Shown piece after piece: positions 5,614-52,382 of a DNA stretch of 52,748 bases. A program made the position numbers and the translations under genes. The notes beneath the pieces are model-generated. The model was given only the letters and a program-made list of their open reading frames with translations, was not told the DNA's origin and ran no database searches. How positions within the stretch are numbered: the stretch's first letter is position 1; the number at the start of each line of letters is the position of its first letter. The stretch covers positions 1 through 52,748 of the forward strand of contig CANIWM010000038.1 of the NCBI GenBank assembly GCA_947471505.1. The letters run 5' to 3'. This DNA is from Chthoniobacteraceae bacterium. GTDB taxonomy: Bacteria > Verrucomicrobiota > Verrucomicrobiia > Chthoniobacterales > Chthoniobacteraceae.

Positions 5614-6369
5614 ATGCTCCGAACATTCGCGCTAGTCCTGCTCGCCGTCGCTTCCGCCTTCGCCCAGCAAAGGACGATCTACCTCACCTTCGACGATGGC
5701 CCGCAGCCGGGCACGACCGACGTGCTCGATGTGCTGAAAGAGGAAGGGGTCCACGGCGTATTCTTCCTCACCGGCAGTAACGCGTTGTCCGTCGGCGGGC
5801 TGGAAGGGCAGGCGAAGATTATCCTGCGCACTCTGGCCGAGGGGCACGAGATCGGGAACCACTGCTACATCCACGAGCCGATGACGAAAGACGGCTATCG
5901 TGCGGCTTACGGCGACCTCTCCACCGACGCACAGCGCGACGCCTTTCATAAAAACCTCGCGCGGAATGACAGCGAGCTTGGGCGGCGGCTGGAGAAGCCG
6001 GGGTTCAAGTTCGAGTTCGCGCGTCTGCCCGGCGATGGCAGCACTTTTCCCCACCTCGTCGCGGAGGTGGAGAAGATGGGGATGAAGCACTTCCACTGGC
6101 AGCAAGAGTTCGCGCCGAACGGTGTGTTCAAATGGATCAAGAACCTCGACTGGAAAGGCGTCGCGGGCGTCGGCGGCGATGTCTCGTGGTTCCCGAGAGA
6201 CGGCGAGGTGATCCTTTTCCACGACCGGCACTGGGCTGGGGAAAAGCGGGAGCTTCTGCGGAGTCTCATCCGTTTCCTCAAAGAGAAAGGCTACACCTTC
6301 GGCAAGCTCGCCGACTGGAAGCCCGCGCCGCCCAAGCCCGCAAAACCTGCGGCCCCACCTGCGCCTTAG
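5614..6369 (+). CDS. Secreted polysaccharide deacetylase (NodB domain)
   Basis: A 251-residue carbohydrate esterase 4-type protein. I chose the ATG at 5614 because it gives a clean signal peptide (LRTFALVLLAVASAFA, cleavage near AFA-QQ); an upstream in-frame TTG at 5563 adds an unlikely leader. The NodB metal-binding start TFDDGP is at residues 25-30, with the Asp27/Asp28 pair. A histidine motif follows in GHEIGNHCYIH, and ARLPGDGS matches the conserved arginine/proline block. The family removes N-acetyl groups from chitin-like polymers or peptidoglycan. The C-terminus is a short Pro/Ala/Lys-rich tail. It ends 38 bases before the sugar kinase, with which it may form an operon. Confidence 0.88.
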   Translation: MLRTFALVLLAVASAFAQQRTIYLTFDDGPQPGTTDVLDVLKEEGVHGVFFLTGSNALSVGGLEGQAKIILRTLAEGHEIGNHCYIHEPMTKDGYRAAYGDLSTDAQRDAFHKNLARNDSELGRRLEKPGFKFEFARLPGDGSTFPHLVAEVEKMGMKHFHWQQEFAPNGVFKWIKNLDWKGVAGVGGDVSWFPRDGEVILFHDRHWAGEKRELLRSLIRFLKEKGYTFGKLADWKPAPPKPAKPAAPPAP

Positions 6370-6407
6370 CTGGACCAACGGAAAACGGCCCGATATACAG
6401 CGGCCCG

Positions 6408-7517
6408 ATGTCACAAAACCTGTCAAAAACTACTGCCGCCCGTCTCAAAACCGCCGCGAGTTCCATCGCGAAACTCAAGGCTCTCGTCGGGTTCGACGGG
6501 TTTGTTGATACGATCATTGATGTCGTGAAGACCCGGCACTCCGCGACGAAAATTGACCGCTACACCACGATGGTCGAGTGGGCACAACGCATCACGGCGG
6601 CCTCGGGAGTGAGCGCGAACTTCGAGCTGGCGGTGAAGATGGTGAAGCTCGGCGGCAACGGCCCCATCATGGCGAACGCGCTGGAGTCGTTTGGGTTTGG
6701 CACGACCTACATCGGCAATCTCGGCTGTCCGAATCTGCACCCCGTTTTTGCCGACTTTGCGAAGCGCGCGAAGGTCATCTCCATCGCCGAGCCCGGCTAC
6801 ACGGACGCCTATGAGTTCGACGACGGGAAGCTGATGTGCGGCGATCAGCGCGGGCTACAAAATGTGAATTGGAACGAGCTGACGAAGGCGATTCCCGAAG
6901 CCGAATTGATACGCATTTTCTCCAGCTCACAGCTCATCGCGATGGTGAACTGGACGATGCTCATCAACCTTTCCGGCATCTTCAAAAAGCTGCTCACCCG
7001 CGTGATGCCGAAGCTCAAAGGCGAGAAGCGCTGGGTGTTTTTCGACCTCACGGACCCAGCCAAACGCTCGCGCGAAGACCTCATGGAAGCGCTCAAACTC
7101 GTGAGCGGCTTCGAGAAGCACGCGCGCGTCATCCTCGGGCTGAATCTCGGCGAAGCCCGGCAGGTGAGCGAAGTGCTCGGCCTCGGCCCTGTCGAAGAAA
7201 CCTACGGCACGGTGACGCACGCCGCGTCGCAGATTCGCGAGAAGCTGAAGGTGGACACGGTCGTCGTGCATCCCGTGCAGTTCGCCGCTGGCTCCGATGC
7301 CTCCGGCTCCACGCATGTGGAAGGGCCATTCTGCGCCGTGCCGAAGATCACCACGGGAGCAGGCGATCACTTTAACGCCGGATTTTGCCTTGGGCGGATG
7401 GCCGGGCTCACGCTCGCCGAGAGCCTACAAGCGGGCGTCGGCACGAGCGGCTTCTACGTGCGCACAGCGAAGAGCCCGAAGGTCGCCGACTTGGCGAAGT
7501 TCCTCGGCACGCTTTAG
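6408..7517 (+). CDS. PfkB-family carbohydrate kinase
   Basis: A 369-residue ribokinase-like protein. The start is ATG at 6408; longer in-frame extensions run through the end of the deacetylase gene in another frame. The second PfkB signature is clear near the C-terminus as TTGAGDHFNAGF, with the catalytic Asp at residue 320 and the GAGD anion hole. An N-terminal substrate block VGFDGFVDTI and the glycine segment KLGGNGPIMANAL fit sugar-kinase substrate and lid regions. The family phosphorylates sugars or nucleosides with ATP in the cytoplasm. The exact substrate is not recognisable. Its position behind the deacetylase suggests amino-sugar or polysaccharide metabolism, which is inference only. 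Confidence 0.85.
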   Translation: MSQNLSKTTAARLKTAASSIAKLKALVGFDGFVDTIIDVVKTRHSATKIDRYTTMVEWAQRITAASGVSANFELAVKMVKLGGNGPIMANALESFGFGTTYIGNLGCPNLHPVFADFAKRAKVISIAEPGYTDAYEFDDGKLMCGDQRGLQNVNWNELTKAIPEAELIRIFSSSQLIAMVNWTMLINLSGIFKKLLTRVMPKLKGEKRWVFFDLTDPAKRSREDLMEALKLVSGFEKHARVILGLNLGEARQVSEVLGLGPVEETYGTVTHAASQIREKLKVDTVVVHPVQFAAGSDASGSTHVEGPFCAVPKITTGAGDHFNAGFCLGRMAGLTLAESLQAGVGTSGFYVRTAKSPKVADLAKFLGTL

Positions 7518-7565
7518 CCCTTCGCTTCGCTGCGGTGAGGTCGGCTTCGTGCGCGGGCGCTTTAT

Positions 7566-7788: not shown

Positions 7789-9276
7789 TCACACCCCGAT
7801 CAGTTCCGGCTCGGCTTGCTGGGCGGCGGGGACTTGGCGCTGGATGGTGAGCGTTTTGTCGGCGAGGCGGTCGGAGTAGATTTCGCTCCAGACTTTCTCG
7901 TTCATCGAGCACATCGGCACGGCGACCCACTCGCCGTCGCGCTTCACAGCGCCTTTGAAAACGCAGGAATCGAGGCGGGCTTTGATGACCGGGTCGTTCG
8001 GCGCGGCGGCGACTTTTCCGGCGTCCATGAAGTTGTGGATGCCGATGCCGAGCGTGTGTGCGCGGCCTTGGAGCGCGGCTTGCAGGACTTCTCGCGGCAT
8101 TTTCCCCGAGCCCATGTGCTGCCCGGCGCGGAGAAGGATACGGAGGGCGAGGAGCGGGTTGCGGGCGAGAATGCCGAGGATGCGATAGCGCGGCGTGCCA
8201 GCGTCGTCGTTCACGAGGGAGAGCGCGCCGATTTGGCCGAGGGTGTCGCCGAAGAGCTTTTGGAAATCATCGTCGTCGGGCAGGAGCGTGCAGTATTTGC
8301 CGCTCGGGCGGGCGACGAGGATGGAGGACCAGCTATTGCAATCGGGGTGGCCGAAAAGCGTGGCGTCGCGGCGGAGCTTGAGGCTCGTGCCCTCTTGCAG
8401 TTTCTCCCACACGTCGGAGGGCGTGATTGGTTTTTTGGAGAACACCGTGCGGCCCGTGTCGGCCTCGGGCTGGAAACTGAGCATCCGCCAGATGTGCGTG
8501 CGCTCCGGATCGGCGAGGAACCAGCGGATGATCTCCGGGACGTGATCAATGTTGCGCTCCGTCACCGTGCAGTTGTGGGCGAACTCCAGCAGCTTCCCCG
8601 TATTGCGCCGGACACGCAGCGCGAGCTGGGTGAATGCCTCGCGGACGGGGTGCAAGTCCGCCTCGGACTTGATGCGGCCAATGGGGTAGCCGTGCCGCCC
8701 GGCCTGCGTCATATCGACATGCACGGCGACTTGCCGCAGCCCGCCCTCGGCGACCAGCCGCTCCAAAAACTCCGGCTGCTCGATGAGCGTCTGCCCGTGC
8801 GTGAAGAGCATGGGCACAAGGCCGACGCGGTACGCATACTGGATGATCTCAATGAGTTCCTCCACCCGCCCCGCGCGCCAATACGCATCGGCGACATCGC
8901 CGCCGGTGATCTGGATGCCCGCGCCCGGCCCTTGCAAGCGGCGGTTCGCATCGATCTGCTCTTTCATCTGCGCCAGCGAGGGAATGGGAACTTCGTTCGC
9001 GTTCTTCGGCAAATAGCAGTGCGTGCAGCGGAAGGAGCAGTAGCTCGCCCCGAGGGTAAAAGAGCAGTGCGTGAGGTGCTTACCCGAGACTTGGTTCGGC
9101 ACCTTCAGCTCCTCCGGCAGCGACGCCCAACGCTCGTCGAGATACCGCTTTTTCTCCGCATCGAGCGGCGACCAAAAGGCCCGCCACCGTGCGCTCCAGC
9201 GTTCGCGTGTAGGAAGGCGCGGTGCGGGCGGCGCGTCCGAGATGAGTTGTCCGGCGACGGGTGCGTGTGCGGCCAT
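7789..9276 (-). CDS. Radical SAM protein of unknown specificity
   Basis: A 495-residue radical S-adenosylmethionine protein. The cluster motif CSFRCTHC supplies Cys80, Cys84 and Cys87 (CxxxCxxC) that hold the 4Fe-4S cluster, preceded by SFTLGASY. The glycine-rich SAM contact ITGGDVADAYW follows. Additional cysteines lie further on (HNCTV, HPDCNS, GKYCTLLP, LDSCVF, VPMCSMNE) and could bind an auxiliary cluster, but the pattern is not a clear SPASM domain. I do not recognise the subfamily. It starts 5 bases after the stop of the DUF547 gene, so the two are almost certainly co-transcribed. Confidence 0.82.
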   Translation of the reverse strand: MAAHAPVAGQLISDAPPAPRLPTRERWSARWRAFWSPLDAEKKRYLDERWASLPEELKVPNQVSGKHLTHCSFTLGASYCSFRCTHCYLPKNANEVPIPSLAQMKEQIDANRRLQGPGAGIQITGGDVADAYWRAGRVEELIEIIQYAYRVGLVPMLFTHGQTLIEQPEFLERLVAEGGLRQVAVHVDMTQAGRHGYPIGRIKSEADLHPVREAFTQLALRVRRNTGKLLEFAHNCTVTERNIDHVPEIIRWFLADPERTHIWRMLSFQPEADTGRTVFSKKPITPSDVWEKLQEGTSLKLRRDATLFGHPDCNSWSSILVARPSGKYCTLLPDDDDFQKLFGDTLGQIGALSLVNDDAGTPRYRILGILARNPLLALRILLRAGQHMGSGKMPREVLQAALQGRAHTLGIGIHNFMDAGKVAAAPNDPVIKARLDSCVFKGAVKRDGEWVAVPMCSMNEKVWSEIYSDRLADKTLTIQRQVPAAQQAEPELIGV

Positions 9277-9281
9277 ATTCG

Positions 9282-10028
9282 TTATTTAGCTTCGTTGAGC
9301 GACCAATCGTATTCTTGGAACTTCACCTTCACCCCGGCTGGGAGCGGCTCGGTGCGCAGGCTGTTGATGTAGGCCGCCGCGCCGCCCGCCGCTTTGAAGT
9401 CATCCGCATACCAGTCGAAAATCATCGAGACCTTCGCCTCTTTGCCCGACACCTGAACAGCCAACGGGTTCGTGTTCACAAATTTTTTGGCGTTTAAATC
9501 GAGCGCGCCGCTGAGCCGCCCGGCGGTGTAGGCGGAATTGAGCAGCGGCGGGCAGCTTGCGCTGGCGCAGTTGATAGCGAAATGCACGCGCGGGTCGTGG
9601 AACTCTTTGATGAGAATCTGTTTCTCCAGCGCATTCAGGCTCATCTTTTTCCCCGCGACGGTGATGCGGTCTTGCGTGAAAAAGCCGAACAGCGGCGCGA
9701 TGTCACGCACGCTGGCGAGCGGGTATTTCTCGAGCACGCCGCGCAGCACCCAAGCGTTGTAGGCGTTGATGTGATAAGCAAAGCGGCCCTCCGGCGAAGC
9801 ATCCGTGGGGCCTGCTGCGGCAATGGCGTCTGTGACTTTCGTGAGCGCCGCGATGTCCTCTGCGCTGGCTTTCCACGCCGCATATTTCACGCGCCCGGCT
9901 GGCGTGACGTATTTGCCGAGGAGCTTGCCAAAGTCGGCCTCCCAAGGCTCCGCAGCGGGAGCGAGGAATGCGAAGAAGGTGAGAACTAATGTGAGAATGT
10001 GGCTGGTCTTCATGGATTTTGTTTTCAT
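9282..10028 (-). CDS. Secreted DUF547 protein
   Basis: A 248-residue protein of the DUF547 family. An N-terminal signal peptide (about residues 8-26, FFAFLAPAAEPW) indicates export. Family blocks are clear: YHINAYNAWVLRGVLEKYP, DPRVHFAINCASASCPPL with the conserved Cys pair and the preceding His, and IFDWYADDF. The biochemical activity of DUF547 is not established. It is the first gene of a two-gene operon with the radical SAM gene. ATG at 10013 is an alternative start with an equally good signal peptide. The 239 bases between its start and the fucosidase 3' end (10029-10267) hold no gene and presumably its promoter. Confidence 0.85.
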   Translation of the reverse strand: MKTKSMKTSHILTLVLTFFAFLAPAAEPWEADFGKLLGKYVTPAGRVKYAAWKASAEDIAALTKVTDAIAAAGPTDASPEGRFAYHINAYNAWVLRGVLEKYPLASVRDIAPLFGFFTQDRITVAGKKMSLNALEKQILIKEFHDPRVHFAINCASASCPPLLNSAYTAGRLSGALDLNAKKFVNTNPLAVQVSGKEAKVSMIFDWYADDFKAAGGAAAYINSLRTEPLPAGVKVKFQEYDWSLNEAK

Positions 10029-10267
10029 CGAATGTTGAGCGATTGGAAAGGTTGTTTATTCTTCAATGGGCACAGACCGCAAGAGCCGTCTGCCCCGATA
10101 GAAGCACTCACGCACTAAAAACAACGACGCGGTACCCAAGGGTGAGTCCCAGTCCAGCCGGGTTTCCATTTCAACTCCCTATCTTTGTATTCCTTTGCGG
10201 CCAATCCCATCGCCGGATTCGGGCTGAACCGGAAAACTTTCGCGAATCGCATGGTGCGGAGAAGTGG

Positions 10268-10630
10268 CTACGGCTTTCCGCCGACGGGCAGTCGGCGGGC
10301 TTCCTGAAACATCGCGACGGTCGCGGGGGCGACGGTGCCTTCCTGGTAAATCTCGACGTTGAAAATGGGCACATTGTGATAGCTGCGGAAGCGCCCGAGC
10401 AGCTCGGCCATCTGCGGCGCGGTCCATTTGGGCGGGCCGGTCTCTGTATCTTTCCGCGAGTGAACCCAGTCGCCCTCGGCTATAAGGCACGCGCTGGATT
10501 GCAGCCCGGCGTAGGCACCGCGTGCGTAGCGCCCGTCGCCGCCCTTCGTCAGCAGCGCGTCGGCGCCGGATGGCTCGGCGCGACCTTCGCCGCAGTAGAA
10601 ATCCTGAAACTCGGTGGGCGACGGTAGTTC
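10268..10630 (-). pseudogene. Stranded C-terminal part of the fucosidase beyond an in-frame TGA
   Basis: Reading on in the same frame past the TGA at 10631-10633 gives 120 further sense codons, beginning ELPSPTEFQDFYCGEG and ending RLPVGGKP before TAG at 10268-10270. The segment reads like the end of the same enzyme (WTAPQMAELLGRFRSYHNVP, IFNVEIYQEG), with normal composition and no other lesion. A single C-to-T change (CGA Arg to TGA) explains the interruption. Either the gene is truncated here or the base is a sequencing error. No separate start codon or ribosome site suggests independent translation. Confidence 0.75.
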
Positions 10631-11707
10631 TCACGGATTCCAGCCGATGAGCCGCTGCGCGAAGCCCGCGCGTGCGGCGCGGTGAAGAGATTCCCACGGC
10701 GCGCTCCGGTAGTAGTAGGCGACCGCGCCGTCGTCGAACCACCACCCGGCGAGCCGCTCGCCGTAGCGCTCGCCGATTTCCGTGATGAAGCTCCGCCAGT
10801 TCGTAAAAAAGCGCGTGGTGTCCGTCTCCATCGCACCGCTGGCCTTGATCCACGCCGGGTCTGAGCCCGCGCCGAGATGGTAGTAAAGCATCAGCTTCAT
10901 CCCCCGCTTTTGTAGCGCCGCAGCGAGGTCGCCCACGAGATCGCGCGACGTCGTGCGGCCGGGCAGCAGTGTATCCAGCACGTGGCTCGGCCCAGGGAAA
11001 TACTGCTGCCCGTGCGAAGTCGTGAGCACCACAAAGCCCGCGCCCGTCGCCTGCATCTGCGCGGCGAACGCCTCCACATCGAGCGCCGCCACGGCCTGCG
11101 CATACGGCTTCCGTTCGCCCGCGCGCGGCATCGTCTCGCTCGTCCAGTGGACCATCATCCCGTAGCCCGCCTCCTGAAACCATTTCGCGTCCGCACGCAG
11201 GCTCACTGCCTTTTCGAGCAACGCCGTGCGCACCGCCGGCCGCCCCAACTCGACCGACTGCACTGACAGCTCGAAATCTTCCGCCGGTGCGAGGACCCGC
11301 AGCGTTACCGCCACCGCGCCCTGCGGCAGCCGCAGCGTTCCGTCGAGCGGCACCCGATTCCACCCGCGCTCCTGCCCGGTGAGCGCGCCGCGCACTTCGC
11401 TTTCACCAGCCTGCACGACGAAACGCACCGGCGCGCCGTAGCTTTGGTAAAGCGAGACATTCACCGCGTAGTCGTCCGCCGCAGGCGCCGTCACGCGCCA
11501 CTCCGCCTGCTGCCCGGCCTTGCGCCAGCCTTTGCCGAAGAACTTCCCGTGGCCGCTCGTCCACTTCTCCGCGCCCTCGGAGACCGCGGCATCGGGCACC
11601 ATCAGCACGGTGAAATCATCGGGCCGCACGTAGAAGTCCGGTACGAACTGAGCGCCAGAAACATTCGCCATCAAAATGAGCGAGAGAAATGCGAAGCGAA
11701 AACTCAT
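10631..11707 (-). CDS. Alpha-L-fucosidase-like (GH29) protein, cut short by an in-frame TGA
   Basis: Residues 1-358 of what looks like a 479-codon glycoside hydrolase. A signal peptide (FRFAFLSLILMANVSGA) is followed by a beta-sandwich-like N-terminal domain (about 20-160). The GH29-type barrel then has GMMVHWTSE (about 184-192), VVLTTSHGQQYFP and GWWFDDGA (about 321-328), where an Asp fits the nucleophile position. The reading stops at TGA right after IGWNP, although coding clearly continues in frame (see 10268-10630). The ATG overlaps the stop of the giant upstream gene as ATGA, so it is translationally coupled and last in the sigma-factor operon. It would release fucose-like residues from glycans outside the cytoplasm. 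The match to classical fucosidases is partial. Confidence 0.72.
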   Translation of the reverse strand: MSFRFAFLSLILMANVSGAQFVPDFYVRPDDFTVLMVPDAAVSEGAEKWTSGHGKFFGKGWRKAGQQAEWRVTAPAADDYAVNVSLYQSYGAPVRFVVQAGESEVRGALTGQERGWNRVPLDGTLRLPQGAVAVTLRVLAPAEDFELSVQSVELGRPAVRTALLEKAVSLRADAKWFQEAGYGMMVHWTSETMPRAGERKPYAQAVAALDVEAFAAQMQATGAGFVVLTTSHGQQYFPGPSHVLDTLLPGRTTSRDLVGDLAAALQKRGMKLMLYYHLGAGSDPAWIKASGAMETDTTRFFTNWRSFITEIGERYGERLAGWWFDDGAVAYYYRSAPWESLHRAARAGFAQRLIGWNP

Positions 11708-14700
11708 GGTTTGCTGATTTTGAGATGAAGAAACCGACGCCCGCTCGCGCCCGCAGCGACGCTCGCCTTCACCGTCTGCACGGTGCCGTTGTCGCTGAGG
11801 ATTTGCTCGGTCACGCCAGCGCTGCTCCAGCTTCCCGCAGCGAGGGTGTCGCTCCACTCGACGCTGAAGGTCACACCATCGGCGAGCGCGGCGAGGCTGC
11901 GGACGTAGGTTAATTCCAGCGTTGTGCCGTTTTTCACCAAAGCCGGTGCAGCGGCGGTGGCAGCGAGCGGGTTTTGCCCGGTGGCGAATTCCAGCAGATT
12001 CACTTCGCCGTCGCCGTTCGCGTCGAAGAGGTCGGCGGCGGTGTCGGTGTTGGAGGTCGTCCCGAAGTATTGGTAGCGCCAGTTTTGCTGGGCGGTGGCG
12101 ATGGTGAGGACGACGTCGTTTCCACTCCCGCCGGCGTAGCTGATGATCCAGTTGTAGCCGCCCGCGTTGAACACGCTTCCCTCGGGTTTTCCAAGGAACG
12201 CGCCGTTGTTCGCTCCCGCGCTGGTCTTGTTCAGGATGGTGAAGCTGCTGCCCGTGGCCAGGCCCGCGATGGCGCTGAGGTCGAGCGTGCCGTTGAGGCT
12301 GACGCTGCCACCGACATTGAGCTGGCCGTAGTGTGTGCCCGCTGCGACGCCGTTGATCTGGACGCCAAAGTGGCCGCCGCTGTTCATCGTCACGCTCCCC
12401 GTCGTGGTCGGCGTGCCGAGGGCGGACAGCGTGCCGCCGTTGACCTCCACATCGCTCGTGAGGCTGCCGCTCAACGCCAGCTTTCCGGCCACGATGGTGG
12501 TCGCGCCGTTGTAACTGCTCGCTCCGGAAAGCGTCAGCGTGCCGACCCCGGATTTGGTCAGGCCCCCGTCATTGGCCGTCCCACTTTGCAATGATTGCGC
12601 GATGGTGATGTCGAAGCCGTTGGTCTCGATGAATGCTCCGCCCGACTGCACGTTCGCGGTCGTCAAACCTTGCAGGAAAATCGCGCTGGCGGTCGTCGGC
12701 GTGAGGGTGCCGCCGTTGAAGTTGAACGTGCCGAACGTGTCTGTCCCGGCGTCCTGCGTGACTTGGTTCACGTTGAGCACGCCGCCGTTGAGATTGTATT
12801 CGCCGCGTCGTGGTGCGGTGTTGCTGGCGGTCGTGCGCGCCATGTTCAGTCCACTGGCCACGGTGACAGTGCCGCCGTTCTGCGTCACGCGTCCTGCGGC
12901 GTTGCGGCCAGAGCTTGGCGCACCGGTGAGTTTCAGTCCGCCCCCGACCGTGAAAGTCCCGCTGCCGCTGACTGTCACGGTGCTCCAGATGTTGTCGCCC
13001 GCCACTTGGTTGGAAATCGTCGCCGCGCCGCTGACGGCGAGCAGCCCGCCGGTGAGATTCACGTCGCCCGCGCCGCCGTTGCCGTTGCCGACGACGACCG
13101 ATCCAAACCGGCTCAACGCATTACTGTCGTAGTTCACAATCCCCACCGCAGATCCGCCGAGAGTCAGCGCCGCTCGAGTCGTCGGCGCGATGGACCCGCT
13201 GCCGCCGATTGCCAGCGTGCCTTGCACATTCGTCGCACCGGTTTCCGTGTTGGTGCCGGTGAGTGTGAGCGTTCCGGTCCCGGTCTTTGTCAGCACCACA
13301 CTGCTGGCACCTCCGTTGGAAATGGGGCCGCTGATCGTGATCGGTCCGGGCGTCGCGACGGTCAGCGTTTTCGTCCCCGCGGTGCCGCCGCTCCCGCCAC
13401 GAATACCACCGGCGAAAATCAGGATGTTGTCTGCATCATTATTGGTGAGGCTGTAGCTCTGCGCGCTGCCGTCGGTGCCGAGAACGAGCACGGCATTGAT
13501 CAGTTGGTTTTGTCCCATCGTGCTACTTGCCTGGACCGAGCCGCCGTCATTTAGCGTCAGCGTCTGACTTCCCGCCGCACCTGCGCCGATCGTGTAAGCG
13601 GCGGCGAATGGCGTGTCGAAAAGCAGCGTGGCAATCGTCACGCCGGCACCGAGGTCAATCGTGTCCACGATGCCTCCGGTGCCGCGAAAGACCGCCGTGC
13701 CGCCGGTGGCCGGCACGGGCGACGTGGACCAGTTGCCGACCGAGGCCCAAGTGCCGTTGCCCGTCGAGCCGTTCCACGCGCTGGGTGTAAAGCTGAATGA
13801 GAGGACACCGGTAGCCTCGGTGTAGGTCCACGTGTTTCCGCCGTCCACCAACAGACAAATGCCGTTGGTGCGGATGAAATCGCCCAGCGAGCTTTTCACG
13901 CCGAAGGTCGAGTCGTAAGTCGGCGTCGCGATGTCCGTCAGCGTCCACGTTTTTCCGTCCACCGGACTCGCGTTGGTGAGGTCGAGGTAAAAGCTGCCGC
14001 CGAGCGTGGCGCTGCCGGTGCCGGTGAGTTTGTTCGCCGTCGCGCTCGCAACGGCGAATCGCATCTGCGCGCCGTCTGCCAGAACAAGATCGCCAGCGTT
14101 GACGACCGTGTTGGAGGTGTAGGTGTTGGTGCCTTCGAGAGTGAGCGTGTCGCCCGCGTCCTTCACGAGGTCCGCTCCGCCATTGATCGCGGAAATGTTC
14201 CGCAGCGTGCCGCTCTCGAAGGTGAGCGTGGTGAGCGGATTCGCGGCGGTGCCGAGGGAAAATCCCGCCATGTCGAGCACGCCGCCTTTCAGCGAAAACG
14301 CCGCCGTGCTCGTGCCGGTGCCGGTCGCGACGCCGCGCTGGATGTGGCCGGTCATCGTGAGCGAGCCGCCGAGGAGTTGCAGCGACGCGGTGGAATTGCG
14401 CGTGGCCACGGTGCCGGTGAGCGCGGCCATGGTGATGGGGCCGCTGGTCACGGCGGCGTTGCCATCGATGGTGAGCGTCGCGGTAGCGTTGCGACTCGTG
14501 AGCGTGCCGCTGTGGCTGGCGAGGCTGATGCCGCCGGTGGAAGCGATGGTGCCGCCTTCGAGGGTGACGGTCGCGGTGTTGCTCACGGCTCCTTCGCAGA
14601 AAGCGATAGGCACGGCGTTGGTCACGTCGAGTGTGCCGGAGTCGAAGTAGAAAAATGCGGTGCCGTTACCACTGCCGTGCGTGCCGGAGCGGCGGCCGAT

Positions 14701-17700
14701 TTCCAGACTCGTGAGCAGGATGTCGCAAGCGTGGCCGCGTGCGTCGAAGGTCACGGTGCTCGCGACGGTGCCGCTGCCAGCGTGTTTATCCAGCAGCAGA
14801 TTCGCGCGGCTCGTGCCGCCGCTTGCACCGCGAATCGTGAACAGGCCATTGCCAGTCGGCGCGAGGAAGGTGGCGCTCTCGCCGCGCGATGTGCCGCCGC
14901 CCGCGGTGGCGCTGTCGAGGTTCAGGTTCGTGACGTTCAGCGTGGTCGCGCCGTCGGCGGGAAGGATGAGCGTGGAGGCGTTGCCGACGGTGTAGTTGTC
15001 AATGTCGCCCACGTTTAGATTCGTGCCGGTGAACGTCGCGGAGCCGAGTGCGCTGAGGTCGAGGATGCTGCCGCGCCGCACACTCGCACTCGCGCCGAAG
15101 TTGCAAACCAACGCACCCGCACCGCTGAACGTGAGATGACTGTTTTCCGCCGTGCCGCTGTTCAATCCGCCCATCGTGAGCGCACCGCCGACAGTGAGCG
15201 TTTTGCCCGCACCGATGATGCCGAAGTTTTCCCCCGCCGTGACATCGGTCTGCGTGGTGAGCGCGAGAGCGGTCACGTTGGCCTGCACATCGAGCGTGCT
15301 CGCGGTCGTGTCACCTGCGGCGCTGCCGAAGAAGAGCGTCTTCACGCCGGAGTTCGTCGCGCCGTAGCGCAGCGTGCCGCCGCTGAGATAGGTGTGGCCG
15401 GTGTAGCTGTTCGCGCCGGTGAGGTTCAGCGTGCCCGCGCCGGTTTTGAAAAGGTCGTTCGCGCCGCTGATGACGCCACTGACGGTGAGCGTGTTCGCCG
15501 CGATGTCGAAGGTGGTGTCGGCACTGAGCGTGAGCGCGTTGGCGATGCTGTGCGCGACGTTCGGCACGCCGCTGGTGACGGTCGGCGCGGTGCCGGAGAA
15601 GTTGAGCGCGTTGCCGCTGAGCGTGACGCTCTGATTGAGAAAGCGCAGCTCGTTCAGCGCGAAGGTTCCCATGTTGTTGCTGCTCGCGATGGCGCTGCTG
15701 TTTTGGAAATCCACGACTGCCGTGCTGCTCGGCGTCGGCAGTCCGGGTGGGTTGGGAATCCACGTCACCGCGTTCCAATTTCCCGCCGTGAGATTGATGA
15801 AGCTCGCGACGTTCAACGTGAGCGTGACTTGGCTGGCGTTCGCGCTTTCGCCCGCAACGTTCGTGGCGGTGACGACCCAAAAGTAAGTGCTCAAATTCAC
15901 CGCTGTGGTGTCGTCGTAGCTCGGCGTCGTGAGGCCGCTGGCGATGGTGGTGTAAGGCCCGCCGCTCGTGCTCGAACGCTTCACCGTGTAGCTCGTGGCG
16001 AATGGCACGGCGGTCCAGCGCAGCTCGGGATAAATGTAGCCCTGCGTGACCGTGAGGCCGCCCGGCACGGCGGGCGTGACGGCGGGTGTGCCCGCGATTT
16101 CACCGCTGTTCGCGCTCGTGCCGCCGGGGCCGACCGCGGCGACGACATAATAATACGTGGTGCCGGTTGCAGCGGTCGTGTCCGAGTAGTTCGTCGCGGT
16201 GATGCCGCTGGCGAGCGTGGTGTAAGTGCCGCTCACGGTGCCGCGCCGCACGGTGTAGCTCGTCGCGCCGCTCGCGGCGTTCCAAGTCAACGGCACGCTG
16301 CCGACTGTGGGCGTCGTGGCGAGCCCATCGGGACGCGCGGGCAGCGGAGTTTGCGCGGTGGTGAAAGTGACCGTCGCCGGCGACCACACGGTGCCGGAGG
16401 CATTCGTCGCGGCAAAGCGCACGCGATACGTTGTGTTCGCCGTGAGGCCACTGATGGGCGCGAGCACTTGCCCGAGCGGCTGCACGCCGAGCGGGATGTT
16501 GTTTGCCCACGAACCCGTCGTCGTGCCGCCATCGCTCGCGCCCCAATACGCCGTCACGCTCGTGCTGCTCGTGCCGGTGGAAACGACCTCGCCCACGAGA
16601 GTCGCGCTCGTTTCCGTGAGGCCTGCGGGCGTGAGCGTCGTGACCTCCGGTGTGGCGGCGGCGGGTGGCACGGCGCTCGTCGCGATGGTCATTAGAGTCG
16701 GGCGCTGGTTGTAGCTGAGCACCGCGCGCTGGTTGCCGTTTGTCACCGTCAGGACGCCGCCGTCGGGCGTCGTGCTCATCCACGGATTCTCCTGTTTCGG
16801 CCACGCGTTGTAATCCACGGCCACGCCGTTGATCCAGCCGCCGCGAATCGTGCGGTCGTCGTTGTAGCTCTCTTTTTCGACGACATCGCCGTGGCGGTTC
16901 ACGTATCTGCCGCGCGTGATTTTGTAAGTGCCGACCGTCACGTCCGTGTGCGAGATGCTCGTGCTGGCCAGCAGCGCGGTCTTGAAGGCCGCAAGCTGCG
17001 CCGCAGCGTCCGCTCCCGTGAACTCCGTGGGCAGCGCCGTCTCGATCGCGACGGCAAAGCGGTTGTTCGTCGCGCTGATGTTGGCGGCGAAGTTTGGGTC
17101 ATTTTGCGGATAGCCGACGCCGCCGACCGCGATACGAAATTCCGAGTCGCCCGGCTCCGGGGCGTGTCGTGGCGAGAAGATGCCGGCGTTCGGGTCCCAG
17201 TTAAATAGCACGTCCGATGCGACGGCGATCATCACGGTGCCGTAGTGCAGGAAGATGCGGCCGGAAGTCGCCGCGTCGTTGATCATCGCCTGATAGCCGC
17301 CGGGCACTTGCGACTGTGCGTAGCGAGGATCGCGTGCGAGTGGGTGGCTTTTGTCGAAGGCGTAGAGCATCGAATCGCGGTGCAGCAGGATGTCGAAATC
17401 GAGCTGCATCTTGCCGTGATTGCTGGAGGCCCAGAGGTCGGCAGAGTCGTCGGTCGCGCAGCCCATCAGCCAGAAGAAGTTCGTCATTCCGCGCCAGCGA
17501 ACGCCGTAACCCCAGCACCAGCCGCTGCCCGAGGCGCGCCCATCGCTCGAGCCGAAGAGGACGTAGTTATTCGCGTTCACGAACGCCTGCTGATAGCCGT
17601 CCCCGCGGTGGCGCACGGTATAGGTCGCGGTGCGATCGTTTCCCGCGTGCAGAATCGGCGAAGGTAGCGTGAAGCCGCTCACCGCCATGAGGGCCATCGC

Positions 17701-18012
17701 CTTGCCATCGCCGGTGCGCCCGCCGCCGCCGAGCGCCTGGTAAAGCTCCCGCCCAAAGACGCCGTAGTAGCCGCTCTGGTCCTCGTAACTGCGGCTGCTC
17801 CATACGCCGGCGTAATATTCCAGCGGCTGCCACACTGCGGCCAGTTGCGACATGAACGCCGCGAACGACGTCATCCCAGCGGCGCGCATCTCGGGATCCT
17901 GCGCGAGTTGACCGAGGCTCAGCGAGGGCAGTGAATTGAGCGGACCGTAATCGTTCGAGGCGAACTCCCCGATGCCGGTATCGACTGTCCACGCAGCGTG
18001 TCGATGAGCCAC
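11704..18012 (-). CDS. Giant secreted protein, 3' part: FN3 and autotransporter-associated beta-strand repeats
   Basis: About 2100 residues that continue the exported protein begun at 19589 after a one-base frame change. First comes an unrecognised block of about 400 residues rich in Trp/Gly (for example NDYGPLNSL, GWCWGYGVRWRGMTNFFW). Fibronectin type III-like domains follow (LTWNAASGATSYTVRRG, LRWTAVPFATSYTVKRS). A long Gly/Thr/Asn-rich beta-helical region then has at least four autotransporter-associated beta-strand motifs (GAGTLNLTGANSYTGHT, TGTLTLTGTNTETGAT, VGTLTLSGASSYNGAT). The C-terminus has an EF-hand/dockerin-like DANGDGEVNLLEFATG and a tail common in secreted Verrucomicrobiota proteins. 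It overlaps the fucosidase start (ATGA). The Trp/Gly block may be a glycan-acting domain, which is unproven. The nominal ATG at 18012 lies inside the overlap and is probably not a genuine start. Confidence 0.8.
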   Translation of the reverse strand: MAHRHAAWTVDTGIGEFASNDYGPLNSLPSLSLGQLAQDPEMRAAGMTSFAAFMSQLAAVWQPLEYYAGVWSSRSYEDQSGYYGVFGRELYQALGGGGRTGDGKAMALMAVSGFTLPSPILHAGNDRTATYTVRHRGDGYQQAFVNANNYVLFGSSDGRASGSGWCWGYGVRWRGMTNFFWLMGCATDDSADLWASSNHGKMQLDFDILLHRDSMLYAFDKSHPLARDPRYAQSQVPGGYQAMINDAATSGRIFLHYGTVMIAVASDVLFNWDPNAGIFSPRHAPEPGDSEFRIAVGGVGYPQNDPNFAANISATNNRFAVAIETALPTEFTGADAAAQLAAFKTALLASTSISHTDVTVGTYKITRGRYVNRHGDVVEKESYNDDRTIRGGWINGVAVDYNAWPKQENPWMSTTPDGGVLTVTNGNQRAVLSYNQRPTLMTIATSAVPPAAATPEVTTLTPAGLTETSATLVGEVVSTGTSSTSVTAYWGASDGGTTTGSWANNIPLGVQPLGQVLAPISGLTANTTYRVRFAATNASGTVWSPATVTFTTAQTPLPARPDGLATTPTVGSVPLTWNAASGATSYTVRRGTVSGTYTTLASGITATNYSDTTAATGTTYYYVVAAVGPGGTSANSGEIAGTPAVTPAVPGGLTVTQGYIYPELRWTAVPFATSYTVKRSSTSGGPYTTIASGLTTPSYDDTTAVNLSTYFWVVTATNVAGESANASQVTLTLNVASFINLTAGNWNAVTWIPNPPGLPTPSSTAVVDFQNSSAIASSNNMGTFALNELRFLNQSVTLSGNALNFSGTAPTVTSGVPNVAHSIANALTLSADTTFDIAANTLTVSGVISGANDLFKTGAGTLNLTGANSYTGHTYLSGGTLRYGATNSGVKTLFFGSAAGDTTASTLDVQANVTALALTTQTDVTAGENFGIIGAGKTLTVGGALTMGGLNSGTAENSHLTFSGAGALVCNFGASASVRRGSILDLSALGSATFTGTNLNVGDIDNYTVGNASTLILPADGATTLNVTNLNLDSATAGGGTSRGESATFLAPTGNGLFTIRGASGGTSRANLLLDKHAGSGTVASTVTFDARGHACDILLTSLEIGRRSGTHGSGNGTAFFYFDSGTLDVTNAVPIAFCEGAVSNTATVTLEGGTIASTGGISLASHSGTLTSRNATATLTIDGNAAVTSGPITMAALTGTVATRNSTASLQLLGGSLTMTGHIQRGVATGTGTSTAAFSLKGGVLDMAGFSLGTAANPLTTLTFESGTLRNISAINGGADLVKDAGDTLTLEGTNTYTSNTVVNAGDLVLADGAQMRFAVASATANKLTGTGSATLGGSFYLDLTNASPVDGKTWTLTDIATPTYDSTFGVKSSLGDFIRTNGICLLVDGGNTWTYTEATGVLSFSFTPSAWNGSTGNGTWASVGNWSTSPVPATGGTAVFRGTGGIVDTIDLGAGVTIATLLFDTPFAAAYTIGAGAAGSQTLTLNDGGSVQASSTMGQNQLINAVLVLGTDGSAQSYSLTNNDADNILIFAGGIRGGSGGTAGTKTLTVATPGPITISGPISNGGASSVVLTKTGTGTLTLTGTNTETGATNVQGTLAIGGSGSIAPTTRAALTLGGSAVGIVNYDSNALSRFGSVVVGNGNGGAGDVNLTGGLLAVSGAATISNQVAGDNIWSTVTVSGSGTFTVGGGLKLTGAPSSGRNAAGRVTQNGGTVTVASGLNMARTTASNTAPRRGEYNLNGGVLNVNQVTQDAGTDTFGTFNFNGGTLTPTTASAIFLQGLTTANVQSGGAFIETNGFDITIAQSLQSGTANDGGLTKSGVGTLTLSGASSYNGATTIVAGKLALSGSLTSDVEVNGGTLSALGTPTTTGSVTMNSGGHFGVQINGVAAGTHYGQLNVGGSVSLNGTLDLSAIAGLATGSSFTILNKTSAGANNGAFLGKPEGSVFNAGGYNWIISYAGGSGNDVVLTIATAQQNWRYQYFGTTSNTDTAADLFDANGDGEVNLLEFATGQNPLAATAAAPALVKNGTTLELTYVRSLAALADGVTFSVEWSDTLAAGSWSSAGVTEQILSDNGTVQTVKASVAAGASGRRFLHLKISKP

Positions 18013-19589
18013 TTGCGCCCGTTCGGGTCGCTCCCACGCCAGTCGTCGGCGGGATGGTCGAACGCCTCCTCGCCAAACTCCTCCGACCCGAGAAACCGGA
18101 TCGTCTGCGAGAGCTTCACCAAGTTCGAGGTGCCCGGCGTGGTGTAATTGATCCCCCTGAGCCGCCCTTTCACGATGTTTCGCGACGCGGCATCGACGTA
18201 TTTTTTCCAGCGGATCGTCGCATCCAGCGCAGGCCAGATGTCGAATGTGTAGCCGTTGTTCGCCAAGTATGCGCTGGACGAACTCATCTCCGAGCGTGCG
18301 CGCGCAAAATCGCCGGAGCCGAACGCGAGATGCACGCCGTCGAACCGACTCGACGACGTGATCCTGCCGTCAATGTAGCCGACGAGCGCATTCTGATTGC
18401 GCTGCTTCGCCTCAAAAGAGAGCGGGTCCAGCGCCGGGATCGCGCGGAGTTGCAGACCATTGATTTGCGCCGACGCACTCGCTCCGAAATCGAACCGCTG
18501 CGACGCCGCGCTCGCTCGAAACGTGCCGCTCATGTGATGCCCGAGCCCGCCTTCGTAAGCGAGATTGTCGCTCGGGCCACCGGGATTGTAGCTGAGGAAA
18601 GCAGAGCCATTGATGCGCGTCCAACGTCCGCCGCTGGCAGCCCGCGAGTCATTCACCCAAACCTGCGCGACATACCACTGACCCGGCGTGAGGCCATTCA
18701 GCGTGAGCGAGCCGTATTTCGTCGAACTCCACCGCGCCTGACCGACGAGCGTCTTGTAGTCAGCGGAGAGATTCGCATACGGCGCGGACGCGGAGCCGAA
18801 GGTGGACGCGGTGCTCGTCATGCCCGCGATGGTGTCCGCCGACTGTGAGTCGAAGCGTGTGAAGCTCACGCCATTGATGGGAGCCGCAGGAGTCGTCGTG
18901 CCGAAAACATAAGCCTTCACCGGCGTGCCCACCGTGCGCACATCCGCATCGCCCGTCGTCTCCTGCCACCGCTCCCACGCCACCGCCGCGAGTGGCGAAG
19001 TGATGCGCCGCACTTGATACGCCTGAATCACCGGGCTGCCGCTGCCCGTGATTTTCACCTGCTGTGAAGTCGCATCCGCCGTGAACGTGCCGAGCGAAAA
19101 CTGCCCCTTCCCGTCATCCGCGCCCGACGTGTTCATGTTCAGCACGACCCACTGGTCCAGCGCCCCGGATGATTTCACCGTCTGCTTTCCGAGACTGCTC
19201 GCGTCCGAATCATTCGCCCAAACCTGCACCTCATAATGCTGCCCAACGGTCAGCCCATTGAGCGTCAAAGTCAGCGTCGCGCCCGCCGTGGTGCTGTAAT
19301 CATTCCCGCTCAACATCGCCGCATAACCCGCCGAAATCCCAGCGCCTGCCGGCAAAGCCCCCGCCGCCGCACCGTTCGCATTCTGCCCCGAAAGCGAATC
19401 GCCACTGTAAGCCGGAGTGAACGTCACGCCATTGACCACCGGATTCCCCGCCGCCTTGCAAACCGCCTTCACCAGCACGCCATTCGTGCTCACATCGGAG
19501 TCAGCGGCGATGTCCTTTGCCGGTCCCCAAGTGATGGGCGCAGCCACGGTATTCGCTGCGAAAAACAGCGCGAGAAGTTGGCGAATCAC
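17919..19589 (-). CDS. Giant secreted protein, 5' part: signal peptide and tandem beta-sandwich domains
   Basis: This is the N-terminal part of the interrupted giant protein. It starts at GTG 19587-19589, which shares GTGA with the stop of the anti-sigma-like gene. A signal peptide (IRQLLALFFAANTVAA) is followed by two tandem copies of a domain of about 170 residues; compare LTLTLNGLTVGQHYEVQVWAND with SLTLNGLTPGQWYVAQVWVND. A helical region follows (ALDATIRWKKYVDAASRN). After GRKWLIDTL the frame runs into unrelated residues and stops at 17919. The downstream protein resumes in the frame one base back, at about TVDTGIGEF, inside the 94-base overlap. A single-base deletion near 17976-18010, a sequencing error or a -1 frameshift would explain it. 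I do not recognise the enzyme family, if there is one. Confidence 0.75.
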   Translation of the reverse strand: MIRQLLALFFAANTVAAPITWGPAKDIAADSDVSTNGVLVKAVCKAAGNPVVNGVTFTPAYSGDSLSGQNANGAAAGALPAGAGISAGYAAMLSGNDYSTTAGATLTLTLNGLTVGQHYEVQVWANDSDASSLGKQTVKSSGALDQWVVLNMNTSGADDGKGQFSLGTFTADATSQQVKITGSGSPVIQAYQVRRITSPLAAVAWERWQETTGDADVRTVGTPVKAYVFGTTTPAAPINGVSFTRFDSQSADTIAGMTSTASTFGSASAPYANLSADYKTLVGQARWSSTKYGSLTLNGLTPGQWYVAQVWVNDSRAASGGRWTRINGSAFLSYNPGGPSDNLAYEGGLGHHMSGTFRASAASQRFDFGASASAQINGLQLRAIPALDPLSFEAKQRNQNALVGYIDGRITSSSRFDGVHLAFGSGDFARARSEMSSSSAYLANNGYTFDIWPALDATIRWKKYVDAASRNIVKGRLRGINYTTPGTSNLVKLSQTIRFLGSEEFGEEAFDHPADDWRGSDPNGRKWLIDTLRGQSIPASGSSPRTITVRSIHCPR

Positions 19590-20527
19590 GGTTGCACCTC
19601 CTCGCTGATGCTCACGCTCACATCATCCAAGAACTGCGCCGGAAACCACTCCGTCGCCGGCTCCACCGGAAGACGATACGCAGCGATACCGATGACCAGC
19701 ACCCGAGCCTGCGGCGGCACTTGCAGGGTGAGTTCACCGGCCTCCCAGGTCGCCGGGTCACGATCCACAAAGGTCATCGAGCGGGCAAACGCCAGTGTGC
19801 CGCCCTCGCTGTAGCGTTGTTCCCAAAGATTCTTCGCGTCAGCCCCCGGATCATCGCCAGCAACGGCGGCGATGTGAAAGTGCGCCTGCTTATCCGTGTC
19901 GGCGTTAAACCACGCCCGAATCCTGACGGTGCGTGCTCCATTGCCCGGTAGCGCGATGACCTGCCACAGGTCCGAAGCCATGTTCTTGCTGCCGGCGAAA
20001 TCACCCGTGGTCGCTGCGGCGAGGAATTTCAGCATGTGGCGGCCTTCACGCGGACGGACCCGGCCCTGCGCCTCTACAATGGCGCAAGGATCGCCCGACC
20101 ATTGGCCGGGCTGCTGCGGCACGCTACTGGTCGCAATCGGAGACCCCGCTTCGAAGCCTGCGTCCCCGAGCGGCACCTCCAGCACGCGCGGCCACTTCAC
20201 CACAGCAAACGCCCGCACCGCCGTCGCGCTGAACGCCCCGATGACCAGTCCCGCCGCCGCTGCGGTGAGTGGACGCCACGACAGCCAGCCAGTCCAGTGC
20301 TTCTCCCGCGCGGAAGCGCTTCGTTCGGCTCTGTGGTTCATCGGTGATTCATGAAGACCCGCCATAGACGCTCCGGGCAATCGGTCAGGCAGGCTGCTTT
20401 CGAGCAGCCAGTCGTCCAGCAATGCGCTTTGATGCTCGGGCTCAACCAGCTTCGCGGTCAGCTCGCGGAGTTCGGCGGCGGTGATGGAGCCATCGCTCCA
20501 GCGTTGCAGTAGTTCGTCGGTCGTCAT
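19586..20527 (-). CDS. Membrane anti-sigma-like protein with carbohydrate-binding-like outer domain
   Basis: A 313-residue single-pass membrane protein. The ATG at 20525-20527 overlaps the sigma stop as ATGA; ATG at 20534-20536 is an alternative start. The N-terminal 60 residues (TTDELLQRWSDGSITAAEL, then LLDDWLLESSLP) resemble the cytoplasmic N-terminus of FecR-type regulators. A membrane helix lies at about residues 86-108 (AAAAGLVIGAFSATAVRAF). The outer part looks like a jelly-roll sugar-binding domain (FEAGSPIATSS, GQWSGDPCAIV, REGRHMLKFL). By position it should hold the ECF sigma factor inactive and respond to a ligand outside. The regulatory role is inferred from gene order; no anti-sigma zinc motif is present. 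Confidence 0.68.
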   Translation of the reverse strand: MTTDELLQRWSDGSITAAELRELTAKLVEPEHQSALLDDWLLESSLPDRLPGASMAGLHESPMNHRAERSASAREKHWTGWLSWRPLTAAAAGLVIGAFSATAVRAFAVVKWPRVLEVPLGDAGFEAGSPIATSSVPQQPGQWSGDPCAIVEAQGRVRPREGRHMLKFLAAATTGDFAGSKNMASDLWQVIALPGNGARTVRIRAWFNADTDKQAHFHIAAVAGDDPGADAKNLWEQRYSEGGTLAFARSMTFVDRDPATWEAGELTLQVPPQARVLVIGIAAYRLPVEPATEWFPAQFLDDVSVSISEEVQP

Positions 20528-21078
20528 GTGTTCCATTCCTCCTGGGAAAGTTTGCGTCGCACGCACTCCAGCAGCGCGGCACGCAGCCGGATGAGCGCCT
20601 TCTTCACCGCTTCAAACGACTGTCCTGTCTCATCGGCGATGCGCTCCAGCGCGGCACGTTGCGTGTATTTGAGCGAAAGCAAACGGCGCGATCGCTCCGG
20701 GAGCGAGGCCACGCATTCGTCCAGCGCAGCCAGTCGCGCAGTGGCGAAATGCTCCTGCGTGTCCGCCCAGGAGAAGCAATGCTCTACGCGGTCCATAAAG
20801 GCCTCCAGAGCCTCGCTATCCGCCACTAGCCTGGCCATCTGCCGCTTCTCCCAATGCCGCCGGATGAGATTCCGCGCCACGCCCCGACACCACGCCGCCT
20901 GATTCTCGATGCGAATGCCTTTCTCCAGCTCCGCCGATAAGAGCACCCACACCTCCTGCAAGACATCCTCTGCCGCATGAGCATCCCGCAGCAGACCGTT
21001 CACGAACGCGCCCAGCAGATGCCGGTCACGGATGAACTCGGCAGCAGCTTGCTGGATGGCATGGGATTCGGTGGACAT
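20524..21078 (-). CDS. ECF-type sigma-70 factor
   Basis: A 184-residue RNA polymerase sigma factor with regions 2 and 4 only. Region 2 covers LLGAFVNGLLRDAHAAEDVLQEVWVLL and the AWCRGVARNLIRRHW block. Region 4 covers CVASLPERSRRLLSLKYTQRAALERIA and the helix-turn-helix ETGQSFEAVKKALIRLRAAL. The start is ATG at 21076-21078; in-frame codons further upstream would add about 33 poorly structured residues. It is the first gene of a coupled operon with the membrane protein, the giant secreted protein and the fucosidase, so it very likely controls its own operon, as ECF factors usually do. The promoter must lie in 21079-21250. Confidence 0.88.
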   Translation of the reverse strand: MSTESHAIQQAAAEFIRDRHLLGAFVNGLLRDAHAAEDVLQEVWVLLSAELEKGIRIENQAAWCRGVARNLIRRHWEKRQMARLVADSEALEAFMDRVEHCFSWADTQEHFATARLAALDECVASLPERSRRLLSLKYTQRAALERIADETGQSFEAVKKALIRLRAALLECVRRKLSQEEWNT

Positions 21079-21249
21079 GTGTAGGTAAGTCGTCCGATGA
21101 AACGGGGAAATGGGGACAAACTGTTTTTCGGAAGAGGCGTGGACCCTTCTTGGAGCGATTGCGGGGCGATGTTGCAAGTGGGGCCGTTTGTGGTCGCCTC
21201 CACGGAACCAGACTCAGGTGACATTAAAGTGCAGCTGTAGAAACCCGGA

Positions 21250-51049: not shown

Positions 51050-51208
51050 ATGACCACCGACACAACACCACCGCGCCGCAAGTGGCACCTCCAACGCTGG
51101 CTTCCGGCTACGGTGCCGTCCAGTTTTGCTTCGGCCCGGCGGGGCTGCTGCCTCGGGAGTTGCGGGCTTGCAGCCAGAGTTGATAGAGGTCGCCGGAGTC
51201 AAACGTGA
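51050..51208 (+). pseudogene. Truncated copy of the 5' end of the leucine-rich repeat gene
   Basis: From ATG 51050 to about 51104 the sequence nearly repeats 50080-50134 (MTTD..PPRRKWHLQRWL in both). It then diverges abruptly into DNA that belongs to the convergent gene ending at 51108; the open frame runs on to 51208 without homology. A second tandem LRR-type gene probably existed and was cut by a rearrangement that joined it to the 3' end of the minus-strand gene. Confidence 0.7.
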
Positions 51209-52085: not shown

Positions 52086-52144
52086 AATAGATTTGTGTTC
52101 GGCTCTGATGAAAAGCGTATCCCGTGCCACGAATCCTACTATAA

Positions 52145-52382
52145 AGTTGAGGCGGCGGACATCCGGCGTTCCAACTGGCAACTGCCAGTTGAGGCAGCGG
52201 ATATCCGGCGTGCCAACTGGCAACTGCCAGTTGAGGCGGCGGACATCCGGCGTGCCAACTGGCAACTGCCAGTTGAGGCGGGGGACATCCGGCGTGCCAA
52301 CTGGCAACTGCCAGTTGAGGCAGCGGACATCCGGCGTGCCAACTGGCAACTGCCCGTTGAGGCGGCGGACATCCGGCGGGCC
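52145..52382. repeat. Tandem array with 42-bp units, five clear palindromes (array B)
   Basis: A palindrome AACTGGCA-AC-TGCCAGTT starts at 52173, 52215, 52257, 52299 and 52341 (the last with one mismatch), each exactly 42 bases apart. Between them is a conserved GAGGCGGCGGACATCCGGCG. Unlike array A, the whole 42-bp unit is conserved to within a few bases, so expansion is recent. A partial unit borders each end. The array lies just upstream of the start of the gene at 52085. No cas genes or unique spacers are present, so it is not CRISPR. Confidence 0.9.

Follow-up and report, generated by a model that had tools for sequence, protein, structure and literature searches.

Probable exchange of switch and sensor halves within an extracytoplasmic function sigma factor operon of a Chthoniobacteraceae bacterium

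Is a sigma factor operon that looks self-contained inherited as a single unit, or can its switch and its sensor have separate origins? The question is raised by an operon on the minus strand of a 52,748-nucleotide stretch of DNA from a Chthoniobacteraceae bacterium (contig C38, CANIWM010000038.1, analysed in full and termed here the window), which belongs to a 6.07 Mb genome in 153 contigs, estimated to be 96.7% complete. Extracytoplasmic function (ECF) sigma factors and their anti-sigma factors are held to co-evolve as pairs. Here, comparison of sequences leads us to conclude that the operon is quite probably a chimera generated by natural exchange between two modules, and that this exchange is recurrent in the family. 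Module A would comprise the promoter, the ECF sigma factor and the inner domain of the anti-sigma factor up to or through its transmembrane hinge; module B would comprise the outer sensor domain and the output gene, here encoding a giant secreted protein of lyase-like/PATR type. The interest of this Prosthecobacter-type operon lies in a switch half that has apparently been exchanged against a sensor half, a change that would alter which outside signal is read by which switch.

The original prediction, made from the letters of the DNA, described a self-contained operon of four genes encoding a sigma factor, a membrane protein, a giant secreted protein and a fucosidase. This order is found on the minus strand, and the three predicted 4-base junctions are present (ATGA at 20524–20527, GTGA at 19586–19589 and ATGA at 11704–11707). 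The first gene (20524–21078) encodes a 184-residue protein with the features of an ECF sigma factor (region 2 and region 4 type, about 180 residues), matching PF04542 (27.4 bits, cut-off 24) and TIGR02937 (49.6 bits, cut-off 42.9), with PF08281 just below its cut-off (22.2 bits, cut-off 25.7). Its start, the ATG at 21078, is backed by a box directly before it that is conserved with relatives. The second gene encodes the putative anti-sigma factor, composed of an inner domain of sigma-binding type (residues 1–91; 20255–20527), to which we ascribe a sigma-binding function from its position and co-inheritance; a transmembrane hinge (residues 92–110; 20198–20254), identified by its motif WLSWRPLTAAAAGLV and as the best hydrophobic segment of the protein; and an outer sensor domain of about 200 residues (19586–20191). 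The predicted regulatory model is thus partly supported overall: a sigma factor of ECF type with a membrane partner stands, as both PF04542 and TIGR02937 score above cut-off. The original prediction named no known system with this exact order, but the order has a precedent in locus L091, where a sigma factor and an anti-sigma factor are followed, after a gap of about 243 bases, by a homologous giant.

The mosaic nature of the operon is apparent when the window is compared with three related loci. L029 comes from a metagenome-assembled genome labelled Prosthecobacter debontii (by coordinates, G006, of the same genus). When the whole window was compared with it (blastn), DNA similarity was confined to 11706–20191 (78–86% identity), starting inside the anti-sigma gene just past the membrane segment and ending at the stop codon of the giant. 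At the edge, 20191, there is no similarity upstream and 86% identity downstream. At the protein level, the two sigma factors are 27% identical, the inner domains 21% and the sensors 72%. The opposite is seen with L112 and L127, in which the sigma factor is 81% and 75% identical to that of the window, the inner domain 51% and 49%, and the sensor 25% and 24%; there, DNA similarity runs from 44 bases before the sigma ATG to about residue 48 of the inner domain. Moreover, the sensor and the giant are common to the window, to L029 and to L091 with L095, yet the sigma factors of these loci belong to three clades. Evidence on the direction of the swap is mixed: the inner domain of L029 aligns with that of L091 over nearly its full length, whereas that of the window does not, yet L029 and L091 fall in different clades of the sigma tree.

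To place the operon within its family, 57 genomes, largely draft assemblies, were searched with the outer sensor domain, yielding 64 hits in 17 genomes, the window's own included. Five hits were left out (four partial ones and G026:C19), the giant led to two further loci (L091 and L095), which brought the total to 61, and three in which the sigma gene is missing or cut (L120, L125 and L126) were dropped, leaving 58 loci and 1653 pairs, all of which were compared; L154, which has a window-type sigma factor, came later and lies outside the 58. Identity of the sigma factor correlates with that of the inner domain (r = 0.63) and far less with that of the sensor (r = 0.21, permutation p = 2e-4; Spearman 0.04). 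At a threshold of at least 60% identity, 7 pairs are similar in both halves, 26 in the sigma factor only and 21 in the sensor only. Among the 20 pairs with a sensor at least 60% and a sigma factor at most 40% identical, the inner domain averages 24.6%, against a background of 24.8%; among the 22 pairs with the reverse pattern, it averages 43%. At least one discordant pair involves 35 of the 58 loci, and the nearest neighbour by sigma factor is also the nearest by inner domain in 40 of 58 loci, compared with 20 of 58 by sensor.

Maximum-likelihood trees of the sigma factor and of the sensor disagree. In approximately unbiased (AU) tests, congruence was rejected for all six clades tried: the sigma data reject window + L029 (p = 8e-9), L111 + L118 + L121 (5e-4) and L140 + L146 (0.013), and the sensor data reject window + L112 + L127 (3e-109), L124 + L128 (3e-4) and L118 + L123 + L141 (3.6e-8), values that are descriptive given that the clades were picked from the pair table. 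Cluster counts give at least 11 exchanges from the sensor side and at least 16 from the sigma side, two figures that overlap and depend on the threshold.

Identity profiles along the anti-sigma factor, drawn for pairs chosen at stricter thresholds than those of the pair counts (12 sensor-high pairs, without L095, and 10 sigma-high pairs, without L076), locate the break. On average, identity in the sensor-high pairs stays at 19–29% in the bins that end 11 residues ahead of the membrane segment, climbs to 55% over the last ten residues and reaches 83% where the segment begins. The sigma-high pairs are on average 46–61% identical until 21 residues before the segment, 23% in the next ten residues, 51–63% around the segment and 19–47% beyond. 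The join thus lies inside the anti-sigma gene, near the transmembrane hinge. The hinge itself carries a motif around RPLTAAAAGxVFG; a simple pattern matches 36 of the 58 loci, some matches being spurious (L101, L144 and L076) and some near-matches being missed (such as L099 and L108). In 556 pairs with no relationship on either side, DNA identity is 56% in the hinge core (42 bases) and 29% in an ungapped segment of the inner domain; exact matches in register of at least 15 bases occur in 6% of pairs at the hinge and in 0% in the control segment, a contrast that is generous as the control segment was unaligned. Such conservation would suit homologous recombination at the hinge, the relation being one of correlation only; moreover, between the window and L029, the hinge of L029 lacks the motif. 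Other boundaries also occur. In L103, L114 and L124, the common stretch ends at the anti-sigma stop codon, which argues that the sensor alone can also move. L119 and L135 are 97% identical in DNA over 3.85 kb, a stretch that ends at about residue 62 (sensor 91%, sigma factor 38%), which suggests that exchange is recent in some lineages.

At the other end of module A, a putative autoregulated ECF promoter, TGTCC-N3-TTT-N12-GGACG (21091–21118), ends 12 bases before the sigma ATG, and its transcript, if the promoter is used, would be nearly leaderless. The same box is exact in L112, L127 and L129 and has one mismatch in L154, loci with related sigma factors and different sensors. Several other sigma clades have boxes of their own at a similar distance (for example, GTGACC in L118, L123 and L141; GTTAAC in L113, L145 and L149; ATCGTAACG in L124 and L128), each common within its sigma clade although the sensors differ. 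The promoter-like boxes therefore seem to travel with the sigma factor. A search of the genome for the promoter motif, proposed along with the original prediction, returned a single exact site in 6.07 Mb, at the operon itself, so the predicted regulon of one operon is plausible in this genome and may hold. Two other genomes, both carrying a window-type sigma factor, have one further exact copy each (G011:C85:6728–6755 and G019:C49:34344–34371), possible second members of the regulon. Sigma factors of the window type (E 1e-40 or better) are found in 6 of 40 family genomes, own included. No two sigma factors from the same genome are at least 60% identical (0 of 127 pairs, about 2.7 expected, versus 33 of 1526 between genomes), which is suggestive only of an avoidance of similar sigma factors within one genome.

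The output half of the operon is not intact, contrary to the four intact genes predicted. The giant is split into two open reading frames (ORFs) in different frames: the first (556 residues; 17919–19589), whose start looks by eye like a signal peptide, stops beyond a frameshift, and the second (2102 residues; 11704–18012) holds the rest of a lyase-like domain followed by fn3-like and PATR repeats. In L029, the giant is a single ORF of 2647 residues (8423–16366), and in the DNA alignment the window is one base shorter than L029 near 17,979. The fucosidase-like gene (GH29/PF01120; 10268–11707, ending in TAG at 10268–10270) is interrupted by a TGA at 10631–10633; PF01120 scores 63.4 bits (cut-off 25.2) over the part before this stop, and the position is a tryptophan in 7 of 10 distinct comparable relatives but not in 3 more distant ones. 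Because of these two lesions, the output in this assembly is either undergoing decay or affected by sequencing mistakes. The giant might have been read by programmed frameshifting, but this was rejected, as the site of the shift shows no slippery sequence and L029 is simply open; reassignment of TGA was likewise rejected, as at the 4-base junctions TGA itself serves as the stop codon of the sigma factor, the anti-sigma factor and the giant. Similarity persists on both sides of each lesion (the giant domain is 87–89% identical to that of L029, and similarity of the fucosidase-like protein reaches residues 468–476 of 479 in the full-length relatives compared), so the lesions are either recent mutations or sequencing errors. 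Whether the errors lie in the sequencing or assembly, leaving the operon intact in the living strain, is to us an evenly balanced matter, and it is compatible with an exchange of modules: the well-conserved flanks are what an error, or a mutation of very recent date, should leave, whereas the operon has two separate lesions about 7.4 kb apart at most, and the absence of an obvious homopolymer at either also speaks against errors.

That the operon is instead a functional polysaccharide-sensing unit of four intact genes, fucosidase included, inherited as a whole, we consider unlikely. The gene order and overlaps suit such a unit, the fucosidase-like gene following the giant directly with a 4-base overlap, and so does the single exact promoter site. 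Against it stand the frameshift and the premature TGA, the different ancestry of the sigma and sensor halves, and the surroundings of the giant elsewhere: a fucosidase-like gene was not seen after the giant in L029, nor within 2.9 kb past the giant in L091, so the fucosidase does not appear to be part of a conserved unit.

An artefact of chimeric metagenome assemblies is very improbable as the source of the mosaic. In its favour, L029 is metagenome-assembled and the genomes compared are largely drafts; but the break recurs in the same region in the 12 sensor-high and 10 sigma-high pairs, the DNA identity of the shared parts ranges from 67 to 97%, frames are open across the joins, with the 4-base sigma overlap kept in 45 of the 58 loci, and the differences between the window and L029 extend beyond the operon. 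Finally, an absence of any exchange, with the sigma factor and inner domain simply evolving much faster than the sensor, would fit sensor-high pairs such as L119 and L135 but is scarcely credible, given that the reverse discordance is equally common (the 22 pairs above), that the 97% identity of L119 and L135 ends abruptly and that the promoter-like boxes follow the sigma clade.

Several points nevertheless weigh against an exchange of modules, besides the way in which the AU clades were picked. The Pearson correlation between sigma factor and sensor is weak but not zero, so that some pairs must have been passed on whole. Both trees contain long branches, and as the genomes are drafts, a chimeric assembly is possible for any single case. 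The promoter box is absent at the starts tried in L122 and L134, which belong to the window's sigma clade. In addition, weaker targets of the window sigma factor cannot be judged, because the four one-mismatch sites in its own genome are close to the three obtained with a reversed-pattern control.

The gene order, the separate ancestry of the modules, the place of the join and the conserved box are shown by the sequences themselves; on this basis, the operon might work as follows. A ligand outside the cell, probably a fragment of a polysaccharide (a glycan or something made from it), would act on the sensor; the inner domain would then release the sigma factor, which would transcribe only its own operon from its own promoter; and the giant, exported or at the cell surface, would attack a fucose-containing polysaccharide. 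Because the sigma factor, the inhibitor domain and the promoter are held together, module A could be placed beneath a different sensor and output with no cross-talk arising, the circuit staying closed. A broader hypothesis, which we rate as likely as not, is that the Verrucomicrobiaceae maintain a combinatorial repertoire, in which promoter–sigma–inner-domain cassettes are swapped against sensors or sensor–output sets at the RPLTAAAAGxVFG hinge, new wirings arise by swaps instead of slow co-evolution, and each cassette is kept orthogonal by its own nearly single-site promoter. Free natural re-pairing of switch and sensor would illustrate a way for bacteria that have dozens of such pairs to gain inputs without cross-talk. 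The natural chimeras, with their orthogonal promoters, would also offer ready material on how a signal passes through a transmembrane anti-sigma factor.

The 4-base overlap between sigma and anti-sigma genes is unremarkable and ordinary in this large family, since 45 of the 58 loci have it (by a lenient script that takes the start nearest the sigma stop). FecI/FecR pairs resemble the window in that the sigma gene overlaps the gene of a membrane anti-sigma factor, and the relatives L076 and L115 have true FecR; they differ in that no match to FecR (PF04773) was found in the anti-sigma factors of the window, L029 or L091, and in that the outer half does not follow the sigma factor in the window's family. 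In the available passages of one study, FecI/FecR members cluster together within groups, and the exchange pattern here differs from this (PMC9239204). In the anti-sigma factors of L076 (G000:C22) and L115, the FecR domain lies between the membrane segment and the sensor; the sigma factor of L076 shares 68% identity with the one in L140, where the anti-sigma factor is much shorter. For Class I anti-sigma domains (ASDI), the available text states that additional features, in context extra domains, are typically well conserved within a group (PMC7406223). The inner domain here is likewise co-inherited with the sigma factor, but close relatives in sigma factor and inner domain carry unrelated sensors. 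Engineered chimeric membrane receptors, as far as the accessible part of the report goes, follow the same principle of recombining input and output halves (PMC5936718), the difference being that the chimeras here would be natural and numerous, with an anti-sigma domain as the inner half.

The closest NCBIfam model for the sigma factors of both the window and L029 is TIGR02989, the sigma-70 'Rhodopirellula/Verrucomicrobium family'; the L029 protein scores 137.5 and that of the window 103.8, under the cut-off of 124.55. For Rhodopirellula baltica RB10049–RB10051, it was suggested that an ECF factor regulates the PSD1/PSC2 protein beside it, and the passages available to us make no mention of module exchange (PMC2754498). 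That arrangement resembles the family loci with PSCyt1 or DUF1552 proteins downstream, the output in the window being instead the giant lyase-like/PATR protein. Of 52 downstream genes listed, with starts set by script, 49 were scanned (L029, L091 and L095 were left out), giving 13 with DUF1552, 10 with PSCyt1, 3 with DUF1501 and 2 with sulfatase matches. Literature on ECF/anti-sigma domain shuffling, on ECF factors of Verrucomicrobia and Planctomycetes and on Prosthecobacter or fucoidan with sigma factors, judged by titles, starts of abstracts and passages and mostly outside subscription papers, yielded no description of such an exchange.

The proposal that the last two genes encode exported, glycan-linked proteins is supported for the giant, which is of a secreted type, has PATR repeats and contains a domain whose homologues adjoin fucosidases. 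The L029 giant begins with a signal-like stretch, followed by two N-terminal domains that look alike by eye; next come a domain of some 590 residues (381–972) and fn3-like and PATR repeats. The repeats match PF12951 (61 bits, in four stretches) in the window and TIGR02601 in L029; no autotransporter-barrel family was found in Pfam scans of either. The uncharacterised 590-residue domain (16675–18449 in the window, where the frameshift splits it) has invariant N, E, Y and R residues in a 12-member alignment (A1), in which there is a match to fn3 for a single member and a long additional C-terminal portion in one. Neither as a single sequence nor as the 12-member alignment did it match a Pfam, NCBIfam or PDB-sequence family. 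No known polysaccharide lyase family was found in Pfam or NCBIfam for the 12 members, and two PDB matches (E 0.14 and 0.22) are unrelated. AlphaFold2 prediction of the domain from three sequences was unusable (predicted local distance difference test (pLDDT) score 28).

The domain is found in 6 of 387 genomes in a draw from the phylum, own included, and also in G006 and G009 among relatives. Homologues that stand alone are found in a group with four GH29 genes (L093, G382:C18), beside two GH29 genes and one GH95 gene (L092, G382:C16) and after a sulfatase (L075). The conserved N, E, Y and R and the fucosidase and sulfatase neighbours suggest a likeness to toroid-type polysaccharide lyases (PL8, PL12, PL17 and similar), and the domain may be a lyase of this type acting on a fucose-containing polysaccharide. 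The family could represent a new group of enzymes for fucoidan-like polysaccharides, which contain fucose and may be sulfated. In L074 (G043:C82), a second giant of 2218 residues (8316–14972) lies ahead of the giant homologue and overlaps it by 4 bases; this second giant has an HYR domain, weaker DUF1349 and PATR matches and Hepar_II_III_C at E 0.035.

For the sensor, a carbohydrate-binding outer domain had been proposed, which is unproven: no convincing match was found in Pfam, NCBIfam or PDB sequences. A poor model (pLDDT 53, predicted template modelling score 0.59) consists mainly of β-strands. Foldseek searches with this model gave many weak jelly-roll-type matches (TM below 0.5 in the 50 listed), including phage spike, cleaved-adhesin, CBM4, CBM16 and virus capsid proteins, which do not decide whether the sensor binds carbohydrate.

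A second set of sigma factor, anti-sigma factor and large protein of a secreted type is present in the window's own genome on contig C19. L161 (G000:C19, 2340–7927) comprises a sigma factor, a FecR–PA14 anti-sigma factor of 511 residues and a repetitive product of 1192 residues without a Pfam match. In L159 (G000:C48), an ORF with tandem VKRFPSSSVEGLME repeats (6169–7559) lies directly after an ECF sigma gene, and an ORF on the minus strand of the window (51108–52349) starts with tandem LPVGTPDVRRLNWQ-like repeats.

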